From contig JAGOZX010000031.1 in assembly GCA_018058425.1 (NCBI GenBank), positions 1-33,164 of the forward strand: a DNA stretch of 33,164 bases, written 5' to 3'. The DNA is from Sebaldella sp. (GTDB lineage Bacteria > Fusobacteriota > Fusobacteriia > Fusobacteriales > Leptotrichiaceae). Below, in pieces: positions 2,437-24,530 of this stretch (within the stretch, counting starts at the first letter, position 1; each line of letters begins with the position of its first letter). A program made the translations under genes and the position numbers. A model generated the notes under the pieces. That model was not told the DNA's origin. It did not search any database and saw only the letters and a program-made list of their open reading frames with translations.

Positions 2437-5400
2437 TTAAAACACTGCTTTAAGCGATACTCCTGCTCTAAAGTCTTCTTGGTTATGGCTTCCTGCTGAG
2501 TACTCTCCTGTTAAGAACACTCCATATCTATCTTCTATTTCTACACCTAATTCAGCTCTAGTTTTTATTGTACCATCTTCTGCTTGTGGTTTTGCTAAGT
2601 CATGATAACCGTCTTCCACTGCTACTAATCTTGCTTTCTCTCTTTCATTTAAATCTGCTACTTCATATTCATATGCTAAATCTAAAACACCTTTTAATTT
2701 CCATTCAGTTTTAGCTCCTAATGGTATTGAACCATCTAATTTTATACCAGCTTTAGGTTTTACACTCCAAGCATCGTTTCCATCGACTTTAACTCTTTCC
2801 AATCCATCTTCTTCAAATGCAGGTGTCATTACATACATTATTTCTAATCCTATATATGGTGTAAAATTACTATTTTTATTTATAGTTATTTCTTTTCCAA
2901 ATAAGTTATTCGAAGTTATACTGTATGTTTGGAAAGTACCATTCATTTCTGATCTTCCTGATACATCCCAGTCTATATTTCTATCTACATCATGATTACT
3001 TACTCTACCTAAAAGATCATTTCTTAATATCCAGTCATTTGTTTGGTATTTATTATGAAAACCAATTTGAACTGTGTCTACCCATTCTTCACTATCATTA
3101 TCATCATTAAATTCAAAGCTTGTATGAGCGTAACCTAATGAGTACCCTATTGTATGCTTATATGTTCTTTCTATTTCTCTAAGTGCCAATACTCCCACAG
3201 TTTCATAATCATAATCTAATACTCCAGTTGTGTTTTCTTTTACACTTCCTTTTCCTGTTATTATATTTATTTTTACATTTTCTTTTGTATTATTTTTTGA
3301 ATTTTGTAATAAGTCTAATGAACTTCCAAATATATCAGCTATAGTTTCTTCTCTTTGATTTATATTCGCATAAACATCTCCTGCTAAGCTTGAAACATTC
3401 TTTCTGAAAGATTCTTCATTAGTTATTTGATCTATTTTGTCATAAATTTTCCCTTTTTCATCTTTACCACTAGAAGTTAGATAATTATCTTCTAATACTT
3501 TTCCAAATCCTTCATACCAAGTTCCACCTGTATATAAGTTATAGTCTTTTCTTTGAGCATAAATATCATATCCGCCTTTTAGATTTTTCACTGGTGTAAC
3601 ATTCCAAGTCAATGAACCACTTTTCATAAGTAGACTTCCTGTTGGTGTTGTTATTTGACCATTATTTATTAACAATACATTTTCTATTTTATATGTATTA
3701 GCTGTCGTCCCTTGTGTATATGTGGGTGCTATTGTTATAGGATCTATTACAGCTAAGCTGTTTGATTGAAAATATGGTTGTTCTGAAGAATATATAATAA
3801 AGTCATGTTCTTCATTGTCAGGCCCTATAGCTTTCCCCATCTGTAATCTAGTTGGATCTGGTGCTATAACTAAGTTTAATCCTTCTAATCTGAAATTATC
3901 ATTTACAACTACCAGACCAGATGTTCTTAGTATTGGTTTTACAAAATTACTTGATAGACTATCTATGTCTGTGGCCTTTGATGTAGAGGCTACTGATGGA
4001 TCAATATATATATTTCCACTATTAAGTATTACTGTTCCTGATGTTGTTAATAATCCTACACTGCTTGCTCCATATAATTGTATACTTCCATTATTTTCAA
4101 TAATTGAGTCTGATAACACATGAATTCCTGATGAATTATCACCTCTCATTATTATAGTTCCGTTATTTGTTACTTTAGAATTTTGTACTGCTATTCCTGT
4201 AGAATTATCACCTGTAAGTTCTATAAGTCCATTATTTACTGTATTCATATTAAGTGAATACATTCCAATTGCTCCCTGCGAGCTTGATGTTATATTCCCA
4301 TTATTTGTCATTACAGGCTGAGAAGATATAGACGATATATTTGTTACTGTACTATCACCATACATTCCAACACCATTTATCCCTACTTTTATTGTAGAAG
4401 AAGCTCCATTTGTAATAGTTGACTCAACTCCATATATTCCCACAGAGTAGTTGCTATTTGCTGTATCTATAGTCCCATCTGCGTTATAAACAACTATTGA
4501 ATCTCCTAAATTCATATTTCCATTATTTAGAACTGTTCCATTCTCTACATATATTCCTGTGTTTCCTAATCCGGCTGTTCCTATTATATCACCATCATTT
4601 ACTAGATTTCCTCCGATAATAACGAATCCATTATTATTATTTCCATTCATTAATACATTAGATGTATTTGAGACATTTGCAGCTTCTAAAGTAATTACAT
4701 ATGTAGAATCACCATTCATCTTTACTTCTCCAGTTGTAGAGGTATTATTAAATGTTCCCCCTTTTGTTAGAACAAATCCAAATGATCCTTGTCCCATCAA
4801 TATGTCATTATTAGAGTTTACATTTACTACACCTGTAGAAAGTCCATAAACACCTACTGACTGTGCTCCCATCTCTAACTGACTGCCTGAACTAAATGTT
4901 GCTGTTCCTCCATCAAAATATACTCCTATTGCCTGATCTCCAATTTTCAAAAGTCCATTTTGATTTACTATACTTCCAGCATTATAAATTCCTACTGATC
5001 GATTTCCTGCTGTTATATTGTTAGAATTTATTACTCCTGCTGTACCATTATCATAGTATATACCTGCGCTTGAATCTAGAATACTTGTAGAATCTCCTAC
5101 TGTTATAGTACCTGTATTATTTACTACTTGTGATCCTGCTCCACCTGTATATATCCCTACTGATCTGTCTCCTGTAAGTGTTATTGTCCCGGCATTATCT
5201 ATACTTCCTGTTAAGTTATCTGAATGAATTCCTATTACATCTATTTTTACAGCACTTAAATTTCCAAAGTTAGCAACTGTATCTCCATTTTTTATATAAA
5301 GTGCGTCAGAACCTTTACCTACTGTGATATCTCCATAGTTTGTAATTTTTGAACCGCTATCTTTTACACTAATTCCAGTAGCATTATCTCCTACATTTAT

Positions 5401-8400
5401 TATTCCTGAGTTATATGCTCTTGCTCCATTTTTAGCATATATTCCTGTTGAACTTCTTTGTAAGTTTATATTCCCTTCATTTACTACTTCATAGTCTGTA
5501 TATCCTGCTATAAATGGTACTGTAGAAGCAGCTAGTCCATCAACCGCTATTCCTGTCTGTCCTTCTCCTGTTCCATTTACAGTTACGTTAGTGCCAAATC
5601 TTATTACTGAATTTTCTCCTGTAATTGCTGTAACATTTTCAGTTCCCAACTCTACCACATTATTAAATGAATTAGTAAAGTTAAACTGCGCTGTTCCTAA
5701 TAAGCCTAAAATAAATGAAGCTCCTGGTGCTGTACTTTGTATTCTTAAGCTTTCTCCTAGTCCTGTTATACTACCTGTAGAATCAAAATAGAAGATTGCA
5801 CCATTTGTTCCAGTAACATTTACATCTATATTTCCAGTTGCTGTTAAGTTTTCATTTCCTGCTAGATATAATCCCACTGCATTATTTCCTACAAGGTCTA
5901 AAACTAGTGAATTTATTCCAACTTCAGTATTTTCACCATATATTCCTATACCATCTTCACCAACTTTTATTCCACCATCTACTGTTAATGTTGATCTATT
6001 AGCGAAAACTCCAACTCCCTCTGTAGAAGCTGACATATCTATCAATGAAGTACTTCCTAATGTAATCGTAGAATCTGTGATAGGTACTGCTACATCTGTA
6101 TTCACAGCTAATAGTCCAAATGATTTTCCAGATGCTGAAACAGATGATATTGTTCCATTATTTACTATCTCTATTTTCTTATCTCCATAAGCTGGTGCTA
6201 ATGCTCCTAAAAGGTTTACTCCGTATATCCCAACTCCAGAAGAATTTATATCTATAGTACCTGTATTCTCAATTCTCGAACCATTCGCTCCTAATAAGGC
6301 TATAGAATTATCTCCTGATAGTGTTATTGTTCCTGAGTTACTAATCTCTCCATAATCTGCTACTATAGCAACAGAATTATCTCCTGATAAATTTATTATT
6401 CCTCCTGCATTATCAATAACTATATCTGATCTAACACCACCAATAAAGTTCTTTTGTGCTATTGCTTTTTCATTATCTGAAAATCCTGTTATTATAATTC
6501 CGGGTGATAAAGTAACTTTAGATGAAGTAAATTCTGAATTATTATAAGCATCATTTGGATTATCCAAGTCTACATTTTGATCTATAATCAACTCACCTTT
6601 ATTTATTAAGAAAGTGCTAAATGATGTCACAGAAAGTGGATCTACATTAACTTTTGTCCCTGTTAACATTGTTAGTGATCCTGGTACTAAACTACTTAAA
6701 TTAGTGGTTCCTCCTGTTGATTCTATTACAAATAACCTTGCACTTTGATCTGTTAGATTTACATTTAAAGTTCCTGCTCCTGTAAATATACTATTTAAGA
6801 AAGTTTGTATTCCTGCATCAGAACTGTCTCCTTTTTGATAAAATCCTGTTCCTCCAGCTCCTATCTCAGCTTGTACTGTACCCGACACTAAGTTAAAAGA
6901 TCCTGTTGGAGCTAATCCTGTAAATGATGTATAGAATAATATTCCATTATCATTTGCTTTTATTGTTGCTCCATTATCTAAATTAATAACTGAATCTTCA
7001 GCATACAGTGCTACTGCTGATCCACTTGCTGAACCAGTTGCCTCTACCACTCCACCTGTTATAGACGTATTTGATAAATTTCCCTTACTGTAAACCCCTA
7101 CACTTTGATTGGCATTTACCGTTACACTTCCTCCTGATATATTTACTATTCCATTGTTATTATATATTCCTACTGATCTATCTCCAACTAAATTAATTAT
7201 TCCACTATTATTTCCTGTAGCTCCATTTGTTACTATGATTCCTTGTGTATCAGTAGGATAGTTTCCTAAAACATCTTGTTGTAATTCTATAGTCCCTGTA
7301 TTAGTAATAGTTGATAGACCGTCTACTCTTAGCCCTGTTGACTCAGCTCCGGTAATTAGTATTTGACCTTTATTTAAAGCTGTACTTGCTGTAACAGTAT
7401 CTGTAGAGTATATCCCTATTGAATTAGCTCCTATTGTAATTACTCCTGCTGTATTATTCAGTATTCTTGTTCCCTCTCCTGCATATATTCCTACTGAATC
7501 ATCCTTTAAGTTCATTTCTCCATTAAATACAATATCATAATTTGGATTTGATGGATCTGCCCAAGTACTTCCTGCATATTGTCCTTTAGTACCTATACCT
7601 ATTGTACTATTCTCCTCAGAAGTTATCTTAAAGCCTGTATCAAATAGTAAAGAAGCACTGTCTGTACTTATAACTGTTCCTTTTAGTGTGTTATTTAGTG
7701 CCTTTCTTATTACAATCTCATTATTTAGTACAACACTTCTATTTTCTCCTATCATCCCTACTACAAATGTTCCTCCATCTATACTTGTTACTTCTATATT
7801 TCCAGTATCAAATGTATTTATTCCAGATGTTGTATAATCACTTATTTTATATATTGCTGATCCGTCACCATTAATTTCCACGCTTCCCATTTGAAGAGCT
7901 GAATCCACTACTTCATCGAAATAATAGCCTACTGAATTTTCTCCTAATTTTCTTACTCCGCCAATTCCTGTAAGAGTACTATTTTTAGCATATATACCTA
8001 ATCCATTTTCTCCTACTTCTATTTTACCAGCACTGTTAAGTGTTGAATTTATTAACGAAATACCTATACTTCTATTTGTTGAAGCTGCGTTATTATCACC
8101 TATTATAATTTCTGATGCTGAACCTAAGTTTAAAGTAGACTTATTATTAGCTACAACTCCATTATTATCTAAGTATATTCCATATGTTTCTGCATTTAAT
8201 ATTCCTGCTGGTAATAATTCTATTTTCCCATTATGATTTATATTTATAGAATCATCACCATAACCTAAAATTGCTGAGCTTGTAGCTGTCGTTCCATCAA
8301 AATAATTTCTAGCATAAATTCCTACTGATTCTTTTCCTAATACATTAATAGTTCCATTATTTGTTGTTATTGAACCATTTGCAGAAAGTACTCCTACTGA

Positions 8401-11400
8401 ATTTTCTCCACTTAGATTTATTATTCCAGCAGCATTATTATTTATCAATCCATAATCAGCCGCCATCCCTGTTGCTTGATTCTTAGTTAGATTAATAGTC
8501 CCATTATTTGCAACCACTATATCATTTATATCTGTTCCTGCTGGTGTAACTCTTTTATAGTTAGTCTGTGCCATAGCAACTTGACCATCAAGTGAATCTG
8601 TAATTGTATACCCATTTGCTAAAGTTACTTTTGATCTAGACATCTCTACACCATTATAAGCATTACCTAAAAATGTTAAAGCCACATTTTCATCTATTAC
8701 TAAATCTCCAAGATTTATAGAGTATTCTTTATAGTCTGTTCCTGATGCAGTATTTGTAGTATAGTCAATTCCATTTACTATTCCTACTGATGGGATTCCA
8801 GATAAAGTTAATGTGTTTATAGGATCATTCCATCTTAATAAACTAGAACCATTTTCCATATCTAAAAACATTGTTCCTGTACTGCTACTTGATACTAAAC
8901 TATTTAACACTCCTGATATCCCTGTTAAATCCTGTCCTTCTACATAAAATGCCATTCCTCCATTATGAATTGTAGCAGTAGTTGCATTCATTATCTTTAA
9001 CTGCCCTGCTGTTCCAACTCCTCCTGAAGGATAATTATACATAAGCAGTCCTTCTGTTCCTATATCAAATGTTCCACCTGATACTGTTATTGTAGAACCA
9101 TCTGCATATAAGGCAACTGAACCATCGCTTACATTTATTGTTCCATTTGATATTTCTGTATTTGAACTTGCTCCTTTTGAATAAACGGCCACTCCTCCAA
9201 GAGAACCTAACGTTACAGTACCACCTGACATTTTAAAATTTCCTTGATTAAAGATTCCTGTTGATCCATTACCTGTAAATTCTAGTGTTCCACCTTTTTG
9301 GTATCCTTCACTACCTAATGTTACATATATTCCTGTTACATCAGTAGCAAAAACTCCTGGTGTTATTTCTTTAGCTGTTATTGATCCATTATTTATAACT
9401 CCTGCTTCTGTCAATACACTTTTTACAGCTGAAGAATAAAGACCCACTGAATTTGTTGAAATTTCTATATTCCCATCATTTTGAACTATTGAATCCAAGC
9501 CTTCTGCATACATTCCTGCTGAATTTGTCCCCATGCTTATCATATTTACTCCAGCACTATTTAAAGCTTTTGCTCCACCTTTTACATATATTCCTGTGGA
9601 TTTATCTCCAGTTAAACTTATATTTCCTGCATTTGTCACTTCATATGGACCAGCTATATATGATACTGTAGAATCTTTAGGTCCATTTACACCCACACCT
9701 ACTGTATTATTTCCAGTTGAAATTAAACTTGCTGTAGAAGTTAATGATATTACCCCACCTGTTGTTCCAAATATAGTCGCATTTTCTGTGCTTCCAATAT
9801 TAGTTGCTACACTGCTAGTGTAAGCAACTTTACCTACACTTCCTAAAATAAATTTATATGGAGTAACTATCATACCAGTTTGATTATCAATATTAGATGC
9901 ACTTAGGGTAAATGTCGATCCAGGTTCTAAACTTAATAATGAAGCTCCATCACCTGTAATAACAAATTTACCTGTTTGAGCCCCTGTTTCATTATATTGA
10001 CTGTTTCCAGCTAAGTAAACTCCTACTCCTCCAGCACCTATTTTAATACTACCTGAACTTGCATTTATCTGGCTTCCACCTATTGCATAAATTCCTGTTG
10101 AAGAACCAGCATTTATTGTTCCACCATTTATATTTACAATTGCTTTATCTGTAAAAATTCCTACTCCTGTATCTGAAGAAGACATATCTATATTTGACGG
10201 TGCATTTAATGTTATAGTTGCATCAGTTAACAGATTATTATTGTCTACGTATATTCCTACTCCTGATGAAGCTGCTGATCCGTTATATAAAATATTCCCT
10301 GTATTTGTTATGTTTACAGTCCCTGTTCCATAAGCTACTGTTAATGCATCAAACTTATTCGTTCCATATATCCCTACTCCTGAATTTCCAGTTCCTGTAG
10401 TTCCTACATTTATTGTCCCTGTATTAGATATAATTGAACTATTCGCCCCAAATATCCCTGTTGATTTATCACCTGATGTAGTTATAGTTCCTGCATTTGT
10501 TATTGTTGCAAAATCTCCTGCAATCCCTGTAGAGCTAGCTCCGCTTAAATTAATAGTACCACTATTATTTAACACTATTGCTCCTACTCCTGCACTTCCA
10601 GTGTAGTTTCTTTGTGCTATACCTATTTGATTACTTCCTGTACCAGTCACTGTGAATCCACTTCCTACTTGAATTGATGAAGATACGAAGTTTACTCTTG
10701 GGAAATATTGACTCCCTGTTCCTGATAATGTCGTATTTCTATCTACCAAAACATTTGCTTTATTTATAACAAAGTATCTATAAGTTCCTCCACTTAAATC
10801 ATTTATTGTTGTATTTGTTACTGCTGGAGTACCTAACACCCCTGCTAAAGCATTTAAACTAAGAGTTCCTGTTGGTTGATCCCAACCCACTAGAGTTGAA
10901 CCTGTTGCCATGTTCAAAGCTAAATTCCCAGTTGTTACTAAACTCGAGATATTTGGAGTATTTCCACCTGTTATGTAAAATGCTGTTCCTCCATTATTTA
11001 TATTACCAGTTGCAGTTCCAGATAAAGCTCCTGTTCCACTTCTATAAAACATTAAACTTTTATCGTTTACATTTATTACTGTTGGATTAAGAAGTCTTAT
11101 TGTAGCTCCAGTTTCAGAATAAAGAGCTGTTGAGCCCCCGCTTACTGTAACTGTTCCTCCATTTACATTTGTATTAGAGGCTGTTTTAGCATAAACTCCC
11201 ACACTACTTGGAGTACTAGCTGTAATACTTCCTCCTGTCATAGTAAATGTTCCCACATTATAAACACCTGCTGAACTATTACCTGTGATATTTATTATTC
11301 CTGAATTTGTTCCTGTTGATGTACTATCAACGACAACCATCCCTATTGAATTTGTCCCTGTAACAGATATTTGTTTAGTTGCTGTAGCTGTATTTATTAT

Positions 11401-13587
11401 ATTTCCACCATTTATAGAAAATAATCCTGCTGAACCAGTCCCTGCTACTTGTATAATTCCACTATTAGTTCCAGTGGCTCTAAGAGCTGTAGTACTAAAT
11501 CCATTAGCTATAATTCCTAAATCTGAGGTTCCATTAACATTTATTGTTCCTGTATTTATTGCTGTAGGAGTTCCATTTCCACCAGCAGCAACAGTTCCAT
11601 AATCTACTCTCATTCCTAGATTAGAAGGTCCGCTTACATTTATTGTTCCTATATTTGTAATATTATCACTAGGGCTTACCTTCAAGATCATTCCTGAATT
11701 CCCTATTCCTCCAGAAACATTTATTATTCCATTATTTAACACTAATCCTGTATATGCTCTTATAGAATTAGCTGCGGTAAGAGCTGTATCTTCTATAACT
11801 GCTATTCCAGAAGATCTAGAAGTTCCTACTCCATCTCCTCCAGTTATATTTATTGTTCCTGTATTATTAAATACCATATTTGTTTGACTTATTCTAGACG
11901 AAAGTTTTAAACCATAACTTTCTATTCCACCCATACTTATAGTACCTTGGTTTAATACTCTAGCTGGCACATTTGAAGAACCAGGAGCGTATACTTGTAT
12001 ACCTATTGACTTCTGTCCTTTAAAATCTATCAGACCAGTAGCCTCATTAGTTAATAAATAACTGTTATTTATATTACTGTCATTATCTTCAAAAGTTAAG
12101 ATTATTCCAACTTTATATCCTGTATACCCAGCAGCATTTCTAGTTACTACTATTTGTCCTCCTCCTGCATAAGCTGGAAGGTTTAAAGTAGCAGTTCCAT
12201 TCACAGGTAGCACTGCATTTAGTGCAGCATTACCTACTTCTCCTGCATCTGTTATTGTTTTTCTATTTATCATTTCTCTTTTTCCAGTTCCACCTAGATC
12301 ACTTTGTACTTCAAAGCCAACTACTAATGGTCCAATTAAATTAACTGTTCCATTATTTACAAGAGTTCCATTTGTGGCATTATCCACTGTGGCTATTCTA
12401 GAGCCACCAACTAAAAAACTTTGTGTATTCCAAGTTCTTCCTGCTCCAGTTTCTGTTGTTTTTTGTGCTGGTGTCAAAGTATTTATAGAGTCAATAGTTA
12501 AGTCTGAACCTAATGTAGCTGTTCCTCCTGCATTTTGTGATCCATAATCAAAGTATACTTTTAATAATGTAGAGTTAAATCCATAAGAAGCTCCCCATGA
12601 ATATCTAATCGCTGGCGTATTAGCTGTTAGTGTTGTTCCACCTAATCTTCCAGTAGTAGAACCTAATGTTATAGCATAATTGGTACCATTATCTCCAAAA
12701 GACATTGGATTTCCCGATAACGGTCCTCCATCTACTCCATTAGTCGTACAATTCGGAATCATATAATTACAAAATGACCCTAGCTTAATGTTAAAAACTG
12801 GAGGGCTTGATAGTGCTGGTGGTGTTATATTAAAAGTAATTGGATTAAATTCATTTGCTGATACGGTTGGTACTTGAGGTGTTGTTGGAATTTTTATAAC
12901 TGGTATATCATTAACAACTGGAGCTTGTATTTGCGGCTCACGTGGTGTTAATACTATAAATTTATTTACTTGAGGTGTTCCCACTATTACAATCGGTGGA
13001 GATGCCGTTACATTTACATCAATTGTTTCTGGAATTCTAGGTGTTGTTAGATTAACTGTTACAGGTGTAAAATTCCCAATATTTATTTCTGGAATTCCTA
13101 CAGCAACAGGTGCATCTAACTGTATTTCATATGGTATATTTTCAATAACATCAACTGAACTTTTATACTGTACTGTGGCTTCCTTTGATACTTTTACAAT
13201 TTTAGTTACAATTCCTCTTTGTGGCTCAGGTTCTAGCTCTGGCTGTTTTATAGGTGCAATTGCCTGATAAGGTTTCTCATCAGAGCTTCCACCTCTATGC
13301 TTATTTTCGTAAAAACCTGTGAAAAATACTTGCCACTCCAAATATTCTGGCTTTACAATGTAGTCCCCTTGTTTATATAGATCTTTTAATTCTTTATTTC
13401 TTGCTCTCAAGGCTTTCTCAATAAGATCATAATTTTTATTATTTGACACTCCAGAATTGAAATTCTCTGTCATTGTGTTTTGTAATTTATTATAATCATT
13501 TGATGGTATGTTATCAGTACTAGCTTGTGCTAATAACAACGAGCTGAGTGCTAACGTAAATAAAAGAATTTTTTTACTATTTCTCAT
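2437..13587 (-). CDS. Giant fusobacterial autotransporter adhesin (type Va)
   Basis: The product has 3716 residues. A signal peptide (MRNSKKILLFTLALSSLLLAQ) is followed by the fusobacterial autotransporter-associated N-terminal region, about residues 25-110 (ALRARNKELKDLYKQG, then YLEWQVFFTGFYENK). A Pro/Val-rich linker leads to an SFCNYMIPNC segment with two cysteines. The passenger is a very long beta-helix of short turns of the type NxGxIxxxGxxSxGIxxxxG. It contains three large related blocks starting near residues 930, 1615 and 2320. The last roughly 290 residues form the outer-membrane beta-barrel and end GVSLKAVF, with the C-terminal Phe expected for BAM-dependent insertion. RadD, Fap2 and related Fusobacterium adhesins share this layout; the ligand cannot be read from sequence. 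The start has GGAGAGATGAG just upstream. Confidence 0.93.
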   Translation of the reverse strand: MRNSKKILLFTLALSSLLLAQASTDNIPSNDYNKLQNTMTENFNSGVSNNKNYDLIEKALRARNKELKDLYKQGDYIVKPEYLEWQVFFTGFYENKHRGGSSDEKPYQAIAPIKQPELEPEPQRGIVTKIVKVSKEATVQYKSSVDVIENIPYEIQLDAPVAVGIPEINIGNFTPVTVNLTTPRIPETIDVNVTASPPIVIVGTPQVNKFIVLTPREPQIQAPVVNDIPVIKIPTTPQVPTVSANEFNPITFNITPPALSSPPVFNIKLGSFCNYMIPNCTTNGVDGGPLSGNPMSFGDNGTNYAITLGSTTGRLGGTTLTANTPAIRYSWGASYGFNSTLLKVYFDYGSQNAGGTATLGSDLTIDSINTLTPAQKTTETGAGRTWNTQSFLVGGSRIATVDNATNGTLVNNGTVNLIGPLVVGFEVQSDLGGTGKREMINRKTITDAGEVGNAALNAVLPVNGTATLNLPAYAGGGQIVVTRNAAGYTGYKVGIILTFEDNDSNINNSYLLTNEATGLIDFKGQKSIGIQVYAPGSSNVPARVLNQGTISMGGIESYGLKLSSRISQTNMVFNNTGTINITGGDGVGTSRSSGIAVIEDTALTAANSIRAYTGLVLNNGIINVSGGIGNSGMILKVSPSDNITNIGTINVSGPSNLGMRVDYGTVAAGGNGTPTAINTGTINVNGTSDLGIIANGFSTTALRATGTNSGIIQVAGTGSAGLFSINGGNIINTATATKQISVTGTNSIGMVVVDSTSTGTNSGIINITGNSSAGVYNVGTFTMTGGSITASTPSSVGVYAKTASNTNVNGGTVTVSGGSTALYSETGATIRLLNPTVINVNDKSLMFYRSGTGALSGTATGNINNGGTAFYITGGNTPNISSLVTTGNLALNMATGSTLVGWDQPTGTLSLNALAGVLGTPAVTNTTINDLSGGTYRYFVINKANVLVDRNTTLSGTGSQYFPRVNFVSSSIQVGSGFTVTGTGSNQIGIAQRNYTGSAGVGAIVLNNSGTINLSGASSTGIAGDFATITNAGTITTSGDKSTGIFGANSSIISNTGTINVGTTGTGNSGVGIYGTNKFDALTVAYGTGTVNITNTGNILYNGSAASSGVGIYVDNNNLLTDATITLNAPSNIDMSSSDTGVGIFTDKAIVNINGGTINAGSSTGIYAIGGSQINASSGSIKIGAGGVGVYLAGNSQYNETGAQTGKFVITGDGASLLSLEPGSTFTLSASNIDNQTGMIVTPYKFILGSVGKVAYTSSVATNIGSTENATIFGTTGGVISLTSTASLISTGNNTVGVGVNGPKDSTVSYIAGPYEVTNAGNISLTGDKSTGIYVKGGAKALNSAGVNMISMGTNSAGMYAEGLDSIVQNDGNIEISTNSVGLYSSAVKSVLTEAGVINNGSITAKEITPGVFATDVTGIYVTLGSEGYQKGGTLEFTGNGSTGIFNQGNFKMSGGTVTLGSLGGVAVYSKGASSNTEISNGTINVSDGSVALYADGSTITVSGGTFDIGTEGLLMYNYPSGGVGTAGQLKIMNATTATIHNGGMAFYVEGQDLTGISGVLNSLVSSSSTGTMFLDMENGSSLLRWNDPINTLTLSGIPSVGIVNGIDYTTNTASGTDYKEYSINLGDLVIDENVALTFLGNAYNGVEMSRSKVTLANGYTITDSLDGQVAMAQTNYKRVTPAGTDINDIVVANNGTINLTKNQATGMAADYGLINNNAAGIINLSGENSVGVLSANGSITTNNGTINVLGKESVGIYARNYFDGTTATSSAILGYGDDSININHNGKIELLPAGILNAETYGIYLDNNGVVANNKSTLNLGSASEIIIGDNNAASTNRSIGISLINSTLNSAGKIEVGENGLGIYAKNSTLTGIGGVRKLGENSVGYYFDEVVDSALQMGSVEINGDGSAIYKISDYTTSGINTFDTGNIEVTSIDGGTFVVGMIGENRSVVLNNEIVIRKALNNTLKGTVISTDSASLLFDTGFKITSEENSTIGIGTKGQYAGSTWADPSNPNYDIVFNGEMNLKDDSVGIYAGEGTRILNNTAGVITIGANSIGIYSTDTVTASTALNKGQILITGAESTGLRVDGLSTITNTGTIELQQDVLGNYPTDTQGIIVTNGATGNNSGIINLVGDRSVGIYNNNGIVNISGGSVTVNANQSVGVYSKGNLSNTSITGGVVEATGSASGSAVALYAEDSVINLDNGATIKANDNGILFYTSFTGLAPTGSFNLVSGTVQAEIGAGGTGFYQKGDSSDAGIQTFLNSIFTGAGTLNVNLTDQSARLFVIESTGGTTNLSSLVPGSLTMLTGTKVNVDPLSVTSFSTFLINKGELIIDQNVDLDNPNDAYNNSEFTSSKVTLSPGIIITGFSDNEKAIAQKNFIGGVRSDIVIDNAGGIINLSGDNSVAIVADYGEISNSGTITLSGDNSIALLGANGSRIENTGTIDINSSGVGIYGVNLLGALAPAYGDKKIEIVNNGTISSVSASGKSFGLLAVNTDVAVPITDSTITLGSTSLIDMSASTEGVGVFANRSTLTVDGGIKVGEDGIGIYGENTEVGINSLVLDLVGNNAVGLYLAGNENLTATGNIDVNVTGTNGAIFYFDSTGSITGLGESLRIQSTAPGASFILGLLGTAQFNFTNSFNNVVELGTENVTAITGENSVIRFGTNVTVNGTGEGQTGIAVDGLAASTVPFIAGYTDYEVVNEGNINLQRSSTGIYAKNGARAYNSGIINVGDNATGISVKDSGSKITNYGDITVGKGSDALYIKNGDTVANFGNLSAVKIDVIGIHSDNLTGSIDNAGTITLTGDRSVGIYTGGAGSQVVNNTGTITVGDSTSILDSSAGIYYDNGTAGVINSNNITAGNRSVGIYNAGSIVNQNGLLKIGDQAIGVYFDGGTATFSSGSQLEMGAQSVGVYGLSTGVVNVNSNNDILMGQGSFGFVLTKGGTFNNTSTTGEVKMNGDSTYVITLEAANVSNTSNVLMNGNNNNGFVIIGGNLVNDGDIIGTAGLGNTGIYVENGTVLNNGNMNLGDSIVVYNADGTIDTANSNYSVGIYGVESTITNGASSTIKVGINGVGMYGDSTVTNISSISSQPVMTNNGNITSSSQGAIGMYSLNMNTVNNGLIELTGDNSTGIAVQNSKVTNNGTIIMRGDNSSGIHVLSDSIIENNGSIQLYGASSVGLLTTSGTVILNSGNIYIDPSVASTSKATDIDSLSSNFVKPILRTSGLVVVNDNFRLEGLNLVIAPDPTRLQMGKAIGPDNEEHDFIIYSSEQPYFQSNSLAVIDPITIAPTYTQGTTANTYKIENVLLINNGQITTPTGSLLMKSGSLTWNVTPVKNLKGGYDIYAQRKDYNLYTGGTWYEGFGKVLEDNYLTSSGKDEKGKIYDKIDQITNEESFRKNVSSLAGDVYANINQREETIADIFGSSLDLLQNSKNNTKENVKINIITGKGSVKENTTGVLDYDYETVGVLALREIERTYKHTIGYSLGYAHTSFEFNDDNDSEEWVDTVQIGFHNKYQTNDWILRNDLLGRVSNHDVDRNIDWDVSGRSEMNGTFQTYSITSNNLFGKEITINKNSNFTPYIGLEIMYVMTPAFEEDGLERVKVDGNDAWSVKPKAGIKLDGSIPLGAKTEWKLKGVLDLAYEYEVADLNEREKARLVAVEDGYHDLAKPQAEDGTIKTRAELGVEIEDRYGVFLTGEYSAGSHNQEDFRAGVSLKAVF

Positions 13588-22645: not shown

Positions 22646-22681
22646 ATTGTCATTCTGAGGAACAAAGTGACGTGAGAATCT
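22646..22681. repeat. Possible dispersed-repeat remnant (GTCATTCTGAGG type)
   Basis: ATTGTCATTCTGAGGAACAA, then AGTGACGTGAGAATCT, resembles the GTCATTCTGAG...GAATCT intergenic repeat seen in many unrelated bacterial genomes. Only one copy is in this window, so its repetitive nature here is inferred. Confidence 0.35.
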
Positions 22682-22727
22682 ATAATCTCTATAAATTTTT
22701 AAAATATAAATAAAAATTAAAAAATAA

Positions 22728-22756
22728 AAGACTTAATTTTATAAATTTGTTATAAT
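22728..22756 (+). promoter_or_regulatory. Promoter of hydrophobic peptide mRNA 1
   Basis: TATAAT (22751-22756) with TG-T before it is an extended -10. AAGACT (22728-22733), 17 bases upstream, is a weak -35. It aligns with the TGGACT that occupies the same place in copies 2 and 3, and may be what is left of an RNA terminator that once stood here. Confidence 0.6.
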
Positions 22757-22761
22757 ATCAT

Positions 22762-22893
22762 TAGCTTCCGAAAAGCTAAATATTCTTACGATTGGGGGAA
22801 TGTTATGTTAAAAATTTCTGTTATAATCATTTTTTACTTCATTATAGCTAAAGTTTTATACTAGAACATTCCTCGCCCTAATGGGCTTTTTTT
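22762..22893 (+). other. Peptide 1 mRNA: 5' stem-loop, SD-hiding 5'-3' pairing, terminator
   Basis: The predicted leader starts with the stem TTAGCTT/AAGCTAA, loop CCGAA. CTTACGATTG (22785-22794) follows and runs into the ribosome site GGGGGA. GGAATGTT (22797-22804), directly before the ATG, is exactly complementary to AACATTCC (22865-22872), directly after the stop. The pairing extends to 10 bp with one G-U and covers the ribosome site. GCCC-TAAT-GGGC-TTTTTTT (22875-22893) is the terminator. Full-length mRNA should be translationally closed until processed. Confidence 0.7.
22805..22864 (+). CDS. 19-residue hydrophobic peptide, candidate type I toxin (copy 1)
   Basis: The ORF encodes MLKISVIIIFYFIIAKVLY and stops at TAG. 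It is a single short membrane-spanning helix with a Lys near the C-terminus. Two other ORFs in this island encode the same kind of peptide (all end K-V/R-L-Y). That conservation, the ribosome site GGGGGA five bases upstream and the tight transcript boundaries argue that it is a real gene despite its size. In length and composition it resembles Ibs-type type I toxins, which depolarise the inner membrane. No homology beyond hydrophobicity can be claimed. Translation should be blocked by pairing of RNA 1 with the leader and by the mRNA's own 5'-3' fold. Confidence 0.75.
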   Translation: MLKISVIIIFYFIIAKVLY

Positions 22894-22917: not shown

Positions 22918-22945
22918 TTGCATTTTTTTATAAATATGTTATAAT
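22918..22945 (+). promoter_or_regulatory. Promoter of antitoxin RNA 1
   Basis: TTGCAT (22918-22923), a 16-base spacer and TATAAT (22940-22945) with TG-T before it. The same spacing and extended -10 recur at RNAs 2, 3 and 4. Confidence 0.7.
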
Positions 22946-22951
22946 TATTCT

Positions 22952-23014
22952 ATAAAACAATCGTAAGTATTTTAAATTTCGGATAAAAAAGCTGGACTTA
23001 GGTTCAGCTTTTTT
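22952..23014 (+). ncRNA. Candidate antitoxin RNA 1 (cognate of peptide 1)
   Basis: About 63 nt, bounded by its promoter and a strong terminator (GCTGGAC-TTAG-GTTCAGC-TTTTTT, 22991-23014). CAATCGTAAG (22958-22967) is perfectly complementary to CTTACGATTG next to the peptide 1 ribosome site. TTTCGGA (22977-22983) is complementary to TCCGAAA in the loop of its 5' stem. The middle pairs imperfectly. It has no ORF. It lies downstream of the target on the same strand, so it acts in trans rather than as an overlapping antisense transcript. Confidence 0.72.
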
Positions 23015-23118
23015 ATATGGTTAATTTCACTATTTAAAATTTTAAGAATCTCGTTTTCCTTCTTAAAAAATGTATTTACTAGTGAACAGTAAAGTCAGTA
23101 AAAATATCAATATAGCAG

Positions 23119-23146
23119 TTACATTTTTAGGGAAATATGATATAAT
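23119..23146 (+). promoter_or_regulatory. Promoter of antitoxin-like RNA 2
   Basis: TTACAT (23119-23124), 16 bases, TATAAT (23141-23146) with TG-A before it. The 16 bases before the -35 (from AATATC at 23103) match those before RNAs 3 and 4. Confidence 0.65.
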
Positions 23147-23151
23147 ATTCT

Positions 23152-23215
23152 TGTATAAAACAATCAAAAAATGATTGAATCTGTGAAAAAAGTTGGACTT
23201 AGGTCCAATTTTTTT
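23152..23215 (+). ncRNA. Orphan antitoxin-like RNA 2
   Basis: It has the same promoter layout, the same 5' start (TATAAAACAATC) and the same terminator plan (TTGGAC-TTAG-GTCCAA-TTTTTTT, 23193-23215) as RNAs 1, 3 and 4. The targeting part differs: CAATCAAAAAATGATTG can fold on itself, and CTGTGA follows. None of the three peptide leaders in this window matches it along its length. Either its target peptide lies elsewhere or has been lost. The terminator stem differs from that of RNA 1 by compensating changes, which indicates that it is still under selection. Confidence 0.6.
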
Positions 23216-23306
23216 ATGTGATTAATTTAGTTATACTATATTTCTACTAACTAAAAAACGTACCTAACAGTAAACACCAAAATGAAAAGTAATATCAATA
23301 TATCAA

Positions 23307-23334
23307 TTGCATTTTAAAAAAAATATGCTATAAT
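23307..23334 (+). promoter_or_regulatory. Promoter of antitoxin RNA 3
   Basis: TTGCAT (23307-23312), 16 bases, TATAAT (23329-23334) with TG-C before it; same layout as the other RNA genes. Confidence 0.7.
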
Positions 23335-23339
23335 TATTA

Positions 23340-23403
23340 TATAAAACGATCACAATGTTTTTGAATTTTGGATGAAAAAGCTGGACTTAGGTTCAGTTTT
23401 TTT
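23340..23403 (+). ncRNA. Candidate antitoxin RNA 3 (cognate of peptide 2)
   Basis: About 63 nt, ending in GCTGGAC-TTAG-GTTCAGT-TTTTTT (23380-23403). Three blocks match the leader of peptide 2. CGATCACAA (23347-23355) pairs with TTGTGATTG (23438-23446), one G-U. GTTTTT (23357-23362) pairs with AAAAAC (23432-23437). TTTTGGA (23366-23372) pairs with TCCAAAA (23421-23427). It does not match the leaders of peptides 1 or 3 as well. It lies directly upstream of its target on the same strand. Confidence 0.75.
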
Positions 23404-23410
23404 GTATAAT
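23382..23410 (+). promoter_or_regulatory. Peptide 2 promoter nested in the RNA 3 terminator
   Basis: TGGACT (23382-23387), 17 bases and TATAAT (23405-23410) form the peptide 2 promoter. The -35 lies in the stem and loop of the RNA 3 terminator, and the spacer contains its T-tract. The same arrangement with the same spacing is found at peptide 3. Confidence 0.7.
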
Positions 23411-23416
23411 TATACT

Positions 23417-23539
23417 GGTTTCCAAAAGCCTAAAAACTTGTGATTGGAGGAATGTCATGTCCATACTCCTAACTGTAATTATATTTTTTATGATTATAGC
23501 TAAAGTTTTATACTAGAACATTCCTCGCCCTAAATGGGC
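23417..23539 (+). other. Peptide 2 mRNA: 5' stem-loop and SD-hiding 5'-3' pairing
   Basis: GGTTT (23417-23421) and AAGCC (23426-23430) form the 5' stem with loop CCAA. GAGGAATGT (23447-23455), which contains the ribosome site, is exactly complementary to ACATTCCTC (23518-23526) just after the stop. GCCC-TAAAT-GGGC (23527-23539) would be the terminator, but its U-tract is broken (ATTCATTTAT). Confidence 0.65.
23457..23516 (+). CDS. 19-residue hydrophobic peptide, candidate type I toxin (copy 2)
   Basis: The ORF encodes MSILLTVIIFFMIIAKVLY, TAG stop. The last seven residues (IIAKVLY) are identical to copy 1, while the N-terminal half differs, so the coding sequence has been kept under selection for hydrophobicity and for its C-terminus. 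GGAGG lies six bases before the ATG. Transcription is predicted from the promoter nested in the RNA 3 terminator, so antitoxin and toxin genes form a compact tandem unit. Membrane toxicity is inferred from size and composition only. Confidence 0.75.
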   Translation: MSILLTVIIFFMIIAKVLY

Positions 23540-23563
23540 ATTCATTTATAAAGCTAGTTTCTC

Positions 23564-23597
23564 AGACTTGCACAAGTCTACTTGAAAATGGTAGAAT
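23564..23597 (+). promoter_or_regulatory. HTH gene promoter with operator-like palindrome
   Basis: TTGCAC (23568-23573), 18 bases, TAGAAT (23592-23597) with TG-G before it. AGACTTG-CA-CAAGTCT (23564-23579) is a perfect inverted repeat over the -35. Its position suits autorepression by the HTH protein encoded just downstream. Confidence 0.5.
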
Positions 23598-23645
23598 AAA
23601 TAAAATAATATTAAAATTTCATATCTATTAGGGGTGGGTAATTAT

Positions 23646-23870
23646 ATGATCAAATGTAGGCTGAATATTTTAATGGCTGAAAAAGATATAAGAAGTGTCA
23701 CTGAATTAGAAAGACGGCTAAAAATAAGAAATTTAAATATCTCCAGACAATCGCTACATAAAATTTATCACAGTATTGCTCTTGATAATACAAGACTTGA
23801 TACAATTTTGAAGCTACTTACTTTCTTTAATTGCAAGTTAGAAGATTTATTTATTTGGGATTCTAAATAA
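23646..23870 (+). CDS. Small Cro/C1-type HTH transcriptional regulator
   Basis: The product has 74 residues and is essentially one XRE-family helix-turn-helix domain. It begins MIKCRLNILMAEKDIRSVTE and has the recognition-helix region NISRQSLHKIYH; the C-terminal part (TRLDTILKLLTFFNCKLEDLF) is typical of the short YozG-like group. A GTG four codons earlier is in frame, but GGGGTGGG lies seven bases before the ATG at 23646, which is preferred. Such stand-alone HTH proteins are common in mobile or toxin-antitoxin-rich regions. The gene sits between peptide 2 and an unknown gene. Whether it regulates the RNA/peptide units is unknown; the palindrome over its own -35 suggests autoregulation. Confidence 0.8.
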   Translation: MIKCRLNILMAEKDIRSVTELERRLKIRNLNISRQSLHKIYHSIALDNTRLDTILKLLTFFNCKLEDLFIWDSK

Positions 23871-24022
23871 TTAGATCTTTTTTATTTTCAATTATTGTAA
23901 ATTTTTCTTTACTTTTAGTATAAAATACTATACAATAATTATATTAAGATAGACAATATAAAAAGATTTTAAAATGATTAATTTTTTTCTATCTTTAAAT
24001 AAAAATCTCAAGGAGGAACTAA

Positions 24023-24283
24023 ATGAAAAAAAGCCAAAAAGATCTTATCTTCTACTTTATGGAAGAAATCCAATTAAATGATGAAAGTGAAAATTCACTC
24101 TATAATCAGCAAGAAAAACTATTATCTGAACTAGAAGAAATCCCTATAAACTATCAAGAACTACAAGGTCTAATAACAAGATTATCTGATATGATTGTTA
24201 ACTTATGCAGTGAAATGAAATATACATATTTTGAATACGGTATCACAGCAAGACATGTCTTAGATACTACTATTTTAGAGTAA
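24023..24283 (+). CDS. Hypothetical 86-residue acidic protein
   Basis: A soluble, Glu/Leu-rich protein (MKKSQKDLIFYFMEEIQLND...), likely all-helical, with no signal peptide, membrane segment or cysteine cluster; one Cys lies in NLCSEMKYTYFEYG. AAGGAGG lies eight bases before the ATG, so translation is likely. It is convergent with the peptide 3 unit. The upstream region contains AGTAT-AAA-ATACT near 23919, which may belong to its promoter. I do not recognise the family. In this setting an accessory or phage-derived function is plausible but unsupported. Confidence 0.65.
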   Translation: MKKSQKDLIFYFMEEIQLNDESENSLYNQQEKLLSELEEIPINYQELQGLITRLSDMIVNLCSEMKYTYFEYGITARHVLDTTILE

Positions 24284-24320
24284 TTATTCTTAATTCCCCC
24301 TAATATTTTATTTTCAAAAT

Positions 24321-24339
24321 AAAAAAGCCCTTTCGGGCT
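24321..24339 (-). terminator. Terminator of peptide 3 mRNA
   Basis: On the minus strand AGCCC-GAAA-GGGCT is followed by TTTTTA. The GAAA tetraloop makes it stable. It starts 10 bases after the peptide 3 stop codon, beyond the TGTATTCC arm. Confidence 0.85.
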
Positions 24340-24349
24340 GAGGAATACA

Positions 24350-24406
24350 CTAGTAAAGTCTTTTCACCATAATTAAAAATATAATTATCACAAAAATTTT
24401 AAACAT
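24350..24406 (-). CDS. 18-residue hydrophobic peptide, candidate type I toxin (copy 3)
   Basis: The ORF encodes MFKIFVIIIFLIMVKRLY, TAG stop. It shares the aliphatic core and the K-x-L-Y end with copies 1 and 2 but is one residue shorter and has an extra Arg. GGGGGA lies five bases upstream of the ATG. GGAATACA (24414-24407), directly before the ATG, and TGTATTCC (24349-24342), directly after the stop, are exact complements. They differ from the copy 1 arms at three base pairs, each time with both sides changed. The unit (RNA 4, then peptide 3) is inverted relative to the others. Confidence 0.75.
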   Translation of the reverse strand: MFKIFVIIIFLIMVKRLY

Positions 24407-24416
24407 TGTATTCCCC

Positions 24417-24449
24417 CAATCTCACGTAAATTGGCTTTTGTGAAGCCAA
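24417..24449 (-). promoter_or_regulatory. Peptide 3 mRNA leader: stem-loop and RNA 4 target site
   Basis: On the minus strand TTGGCTT/AAGCCAA forms the 5' stem with loop CACAA. AATTTACGTGAGATTG follows (24432-24417) and touches the GGGGG ribosome site. RNA 4 can pair with all 16 of these bases (two G-U) and with TCACAAAA in the loop. Confidence 0.7.
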
Positions 24450-24453
24450 TATT

Positions 24454-24482
24454 ATTATACAAAAAAGCTGAACCTAAGTCCA
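24454..24482 (-). promoter_or_regulatory. Peptide 3 promoter nested in the RNA 4 terminator
   Basis: On the minus strand TGGACT (24482-24477), 17 bases and TATAAT (24459-24454). The -35 is part of the RNA 4 terminator stem-loop and the T-tract is in the spacer, exactly as at peptide 2. Confidence 0.7.
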
Positions 24483-24525
24483 GCCGATTTGTCACAAAAT
24501 TTAATTTACATAAGATTGTTTTCTA
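24461..24525 (-). ncRNA. Candidate antitoxin RNA 4 (cognate of peptide 3)
   Basis: About 64 nt with the terminator GCTGGAC-TTAG-GTTCAGC-TTTTTT on the minus strand. CAATCTTATGTAAATT (24518-24503) is complementary to 16 consecutive bases of the peptide 3 leader with two G-U pairs. TTTTGTGA pairs with the loop TCACAAAA. This is the longest uninterrupted match of the three pairs. RNA 4 is directly upstream of its target on the same strand. Confidence 0.77.
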
Positions 24526-24530
24526 CAATT

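Follow-up and report, generated by a model that had tools for sequence, protein, structure and literature searches.

Among the described toxin-antitoxin systems, those closest to the present locus include tisB/istR-1, zorO/orzO, shoB/ohsC and dinQ/agrB, in which the antitoxin binds the 5′-UTR of the toxin mRNA and the two genes are divergently transcribed (PMC4147584). The locus studied here, located in a 33,164-nt stretch of Sebaldella sp. DNA (hereafter the window), has in common with them a small hydrophobic peptide and a short antitoxin RNA that is complementary to the toxin 5′-UTR and not antisense to the ORF. It differs from them in that the antitoxin lies upstream on the same strand, the toxin promoter and the antitoxin terminator form one fused element, and the pairing extends up to the Shine–Dalgarno sequence (SD). 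That is to say, in place of the usual (not strictly defining) type I layout, with the antitoxin opposite or divergent to the toxin, nearly all units have it upstream on the same strand.

In the Ibs/Sib and Ldr/Rdl systems of E. coli, the antitoxin gene lies opposite that of the toxin, and the Ibs peptides are similar in length to those of Leptotrichiaceae. Small hydrophobic toxins in repeat arrays are the common feature here, and the Ldr repeats are in tandem (PMC4147584). Pairing along the whole toxin ORF, as by an Ibs/Sib-type antisense RNA, was not found; the pairing stops at the SD. In AapA/IsoA and hok/sok, the SD of the toxin mRNA is closed by long-distance pairing with the 3′ part of the mRNA. 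The present units likewise have an anti-SD, whereas those systems have a cis-antisense antitoxin and different peptides. The type III systems ToxIN, CptIN and TenpIN carry tandem RNA antitoxin repeats, a terminator and the toxin gene on one strand (PMC4147584). There, however, the RNA directly binds the toxin, which is an RNase, while here there is a peptide of about 19 aa with its own promoter, and the mRNA leader is the target; the ORF of about 19 aa has no Pfam match and is not a ToxN-like RNase. The family would be filed, pending toxicity, as a variant of type I.

In a 2025 paper, type I systems were given as coming from Proteobacteria, Firmicutes and Tenericutes only, before Cyanobacteria were added (PMC12390103). 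In the open-access literature, we found no report of type I systems in Leptotrichia and nothing on an antitoxin terminator that contains a promoter. A same-strand family of Fusobacteriota, on chromosomes and on both S. termitidis plasmids, would widen the type I range and the known layouts. Our main reading, to which we give a probability of about three in four, is that we are dealing with a type I toxin-antitoxin-like module of Leptotrichiaceae, arranged in tandem on one strand, in which the antitoxin terminator is fused to a weaker toxin promoter.

Layout of the tandem units in the window

The window contains three short hydrophobic ORFs and four short RNA genes. The order on the plus strand is peptide 1, RNA 1, RNA 2, RNA 3 and peptide 2, and on the minus strand RNA 4 is followed by peptide 3. 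The features are as follows, with the kind of evidence in brackets.

22728-22756, plus strand: toxin 1 promoter AAGACT-N17-TATAAT, extended −10 (TGTTATAAT), no terminator hairpin upstream (sequence)
22761-22892, plus strand: toxin mRNA 1, approximate; 5′ stem-loop, SD GGGGGAAT, ORF, 3′ anti-SD CATTCCTC and terminator GCCCTAATGGGC-T7 (sequence, predicted fold)
22805-22864, plus strand: peptide 1, MLKISVIIIFYFIIAKVLY (sequence)
22952-23016, plus strand: antitoxin RNA 1, downstream of toxin mRNA 1; −10 at 22940-22945, terminator stem 22991-23008 (sequence, predicted pairing)
23153-23216, plus strand: antitoxin RNA 2, solo; −10 at 23141-23146, stem 23193-23208 (sequence, predicted pairing)
23341-23404, plus strand: antitoxin RNA 3; −10 at 23329-23334 (predicted pairing)
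23381-23410, plus strand: fused element of RNA 3 terminator and toxin 2 promoter; stem 23381-23396, T-tract 23397-23403
23382-23410, plus strand: toxin 2 promoter inside this fused element; TGGACT 23382-23387, N17, TATAAT 23405-23410
23417-23545, plus strand: toxin mRNA 2, approximate; leader, SD GGAGGAAT, ORF, anti-SD CATTCCTC and terminator
23457-23516, plus strand: peptide 2, MSILLTVIIFFMIIAKVLY (sequence)
24459-24528, minus strand: antitoxin RNA 4; −10 at 24536-24531 (predicted pairing)
24454-24485, minus strand: fused element of RNA 4 terminator (24485-24466, then T-tract) and toxin 3 promoter
24482-24454, minus strand: toxin 3 promoter inside this fused element; TGGACT 24482-24477, N17, TATAAT 24459-24454
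24320-24448, minus strand: toxin mRNA 3, approximate
24350-24406, minus strand: peptide 3, MFKIFVIIIFLIMVKRLY (sequence)

The promoter of toxin 1, absent from the initial annotation, has no terminator in front of it and its antitoxin RNA 1 lies downstream, which makes it a natural control for the fusion. Beside toxin 1, at 22650-22690, there is a repeat (TGTCATTCTGAGGA...GACGTGAGAATCT) which is also found beside a decayed unit (L072) and has the look of a dispersed repeat.

In most units the peptide has 18-21 aa and is hydrophobic, in the manner of small membrane-type toxins, and would presumably be toxic. The peptides fall into two main sequence types, one with KVLY/KILY at the end and the other with YRITR/YRLTR, and an anti-SD stretch follows the stop codon in the toxin mRNA. 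The antitoxin RNA, of about 65 nt, is complementary to the toxin mRNA leader and is located upstream on the same strand in nearly all units. In the window, each cognate RNA pairs with one toxin mRNA leader, mRNA 1 being the best partner of RNA 1; the duplexes are predicted at −26.7 kcal/mol for RNA 1/mRNA 1, −24.0 kcal/mol for RNA 3/mRNA 2 and −33.1 kcal/mol for RNA 4/mRNA 3. Among 12 Sebaldella units, the cognate mean was −24.9 kcal/mol versus −9.2 kcal/mol for mismatched pairs, and the cognate RNA was the best partner of every leader (permutation p ~1e-5); over 59 units the means were −26.8 and −12.8 kcal/mol. Moreover, the alignment showed double-sided compensatory changes in 21 of 32 pairs, and many of these pairs join the antitoxin to the leader. 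Predicted pairing that is specific to each unit, together with these compensatory changes, thus argues for an RNA complementary to the toxin mRNA. From the sequences we infer that the antitoxin is expressed and neutralises a toxic peptide. For RNA 2 (23153-23216) no matching toxin leader was found anywhere in its own genome; it is perhaps an orphan antitoxin, directed against a lost or an incoming toxin.

Homologous units and conservation of the fused element

The locus is apparently a member of an unrecorded type I toxin-antitoxin-like family of Leptotrichiaceae, which extends over Sebaldella, Leptotrichia and relatives of these. Homologous units were found in all four Sebaldella genomes examined, and the plasmids NC_013518 and NC_013519 of Sebaldella termitidis ATCC 33386 carry one unannotated unit each. 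The covariance-model search placed units in 18 of the 33 Leptotrichiaceae genomes; in 65 other Fusobacteriota it gave a single doubtful match (G041), which was dropped as it had no peptide. About 60 units were retrieved and inspected, all within Leptotrichiaceae except this match; they share descent, and unit counts are therefore not independent. Neither the RNAs nor the peptides matched a family in Rfam, Pfam or NCBIfam. When the exact terminator pattern was scanned against genome contigs, only two Acinetobacter bouvetii sites appeared, which were judged to be chance, and the phage records held nothing but a 35-base match to the promoter region in enterococcal phages.

The motif TGGACT-N17-TATAAT, which had been noticed in both tandem units, does occur at 23382-23410 (plus) and 24482-24454 (minus), exactly twice in the window and not once in 100 shuffles, and in both units TGGACT is the 5′ arm of an intrinsic terminator, that is, a GC-containing hairpin followed by a T-tract. 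The −10 indeed adjoins the T-tract, at a distance of one base and not the two first given, since a single G separates the T-tract from TATAAT. RNAs 1 and 2, as had been described, retain the terminator hairpin, TGGACT included, and lack a TATAAT behind it. Over the whole AT-rich genome the motif by itself is not uncommon: G000 has 8 copies, 3 of them in family units, and reversed controls gave 17 matches over four genomes. T-runs beside TATAAT are not enriched as such either (477 versus 510 in the reversed control). Therefore, the significance of the motif must rest on its conservation at homologous units.

Of the 60 toxin-linked units, 55 have an exact TATAAT; the six solo antitoxins (RNAs 1 and 2 of the window, L071, L100:460 and two in L094/L017) all lack it. 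TATAAT abuts the T-tract of the terminator in 47 of 59 units. As a point against, other terminators in the same sequence occasionally have TATAAT beside the T-tract as well (3 of 51 cases). The leader hairpin begins 3-7 nt past TATAAT in 47 of 58 units, where the start of the transcript is expected, which supports TATAAT as the −10 of the toxin promoter. The fused element is conserved across genera. As to the expected retention of TGGACT-N17-TATAAT in homologues, it is the fusion of terminator and −10 that is kept; the stem letters differ outside Sebaldella, N is 17 or 18, and the GGACTTAG proposed as invariant is so in some Sebaldella units only. In 12 Sebaldella units, the −10 is displaced from the T-tract by about 11 bp, or about one helical turn (the subfamily of L057-L062, L055, L059 and L068-L070, where the extra bases lie between T-tract and extended −10). 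Since these 12 units and toxin 1 lack the exact fusion, it is not obligatory for a unit to persist.

Proposed action of the fused element and competing explanations

In the proposed module, a strong promoter would produce the ~65-nt antitoxin RNA in excess, and its intrinsic terminator would be merged with a weaker, mostly extended −10 promoter, the toxin mRNA starting about 14 bp on. The 5′ part of the antitoxin would cover the toxin leader from the 5′ stem-loop up to the SD, as the covariation suggests, and once the toxin mRNA is complete, its SD would be shut by the anti-SD past the stop codon, according to the predicted fold. The fusion may have three effects: both genes would be held in one cassette of ~200 bp; the toxin −35 region would be tied to the terminator stem and the promoter held weaker than that of the antitoxin; and terminator failure would be made harmless, because the read-through RNA has antitoxin and leader side by side and would fold on itself. 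The predicted probability of an unpaired SD is 0.003 in the read-through RNA versus 0.11 in the toxin mRNA. In the unfinished read-through RNA, the SD is predicted to be not clearly more closed than in the unfinished toxin mRNA, so the self-silencing would rest mainly on the antitoxin/leader duplex. The model thus predicts that the read-through transcript silences itself by folding of antitoxin on leader, and that leaky termination yields no toxin.

The dual role first assigned to the stem, as terminator and as −35, finds partial agreement. T.GA at N17 or N18 is widely kept (39 of 45 adjacent units), its A is present in 44 of 47 adjacent versus 4 of 10 displaced units, and toxin 1, whose hairpin is gone, still has GACTTA at the same position. 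On the other side, solo antitoxins retain TGGACT without any promoter, and the toxin hexamer matches TTGACA in at most 4 of 6 positions (mean 3.1 of 6). The match to the hexamer scores 3.3 where the −35 should be; most other places lie near 2.4, and one spacing of no relevance gives 4.0. An extended −10 (TGnTATAAT) occurs in about 70% of toxin promoters, and a promoter of this kind can do without a −35. In the stem, the T and G of the 5′ arm are fixed and the 3′ arm is variable; this asymmetry was rejected as proof of a −35 and counted as weak support, since G-U wobble alone eases 3′ arm changes at T-A and G-C pairs. In summary, the odds of a real −35 role are about even. The antitoxin promoters are far nearer consensus (exact TTGACA in 25 of 63, mean 4.7 of 6), so that a −35 bound to the stem would leave the toxin promoter weaker than theirs.

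Whether the fused element is itself a selected cis-regulatory element, by which toxin transcription would hinge on that of the antitoxin on the same DNA molecule, as a layer of control additional to pairing, is a separate question, and we put this at somewhat under an even chance. Its negative form is the view of the initial annotation, that the polymerase terminating the antitoxin blocks the toxin promoter in cis in addition to pairing, the stem being the true −35. By geometry, the toxin −10 and start must lie beneath a polymerase that stands at the T-tract, and some cis interference, of one sign or the other, is therefore likely; the fusion is kept across genera, the antitoxin promoters are much the nearer to consensus, and in vitro the polymerase can linger on DNA for hundreds of seconds after termination (PMC6978322). 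However, the exact overlap is missing in toxin 1 and the displaced subfamily, and TGGACT persists in promoterless solo antitoxins, which leaves this full version rather unlikely. In the positive form, with an effect of opposite sign, the polymerase that has released the antitoxin would stay on the DNA and reinitiate at the promoter a few bases off, so that antitoxin transcription feeds the toxin and the two RNAs stay proportional. The efficiency of nearby reinitiation depends mainly on distance, and with a promoter at 37 bp it reached 46.8% (PMC7957599); here the toxin start lies ~14 bp from the terminator. That value was obtained in vitro only, with the E. coli enzyme, and most secondary starts in a different in vitro system were antisense (PMC6978322). 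The sequence gives nothing to separate this form from the negative one, and we consider it improbable.

Compaction without any mutual effect on the DNA would mean that a single fusion of −10 and T-tract took place and was passed on by descent, the match of stem and −35 coming from chance and descent. T-runs beside TATAAT are frequent by chance in the source genome, the stem is conserved in solo antitoxins too, most toxin promoters have the extended −10, and the stem agrees poorly with a −35 (mean 3.1 of 6, with a local peak of 3.3 against typically ~2.4); against this, the 17/18 spacing and T.GA persist from genus to genus as the remaining stem varies, and the A of the stem is relaxed once the −10 moves away (4/10 versus 44/47). 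We regard such a history as doubtful. Very improbable is a type III-like arrangement, in which the toxin would have no promoter and be expressed through read-through of the antitoxin terminator. The order of RNA genes, terminator and toxin on the same strand is that of type III loci (PMC4147584), but TATAAT tracks the presence of the toxin, the leader hairpin stands at the predicted start site, the read-through RNA is predicted to silence itself, and the toxin is a peptide of about 19 aa and no ribonuclease. For the same-strand type I-like module preferred here, the ~47 natural fusions, the 12 shifted variants and the one promoter without a terminator form a ready test set for a terminating polymerase versus a promoter a few bases away.

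Variant units and neighbouring genes

Some units depart from the common form. One S. termitidis region (L055, G003:C1:1402300-1416000) holds four units over ~13 kb. In the same contig, a decayed unit (L054:694-813, minus strand) has the toxin start ATG changed to ATA along with the −10 TATAAT changed to TATAAA. At L095:746-859 (minus strand, G001:C49), a full gene for a DUF1275 (PF06912) membrane protein stands where the toxin peptide is expected, behind antitoxin, terminator-promoter and leader, and the predicted antitoxin/leader pairing is kept at −24.6 kcal/mol; it looks as if an ordinary gene, that of the DUF1275 protein, has taken over the control module. Elsewhere in the window, at 2437-13587 on the minus strand, a repetitive autotransporter-like protein of 3716 aa is encoded.
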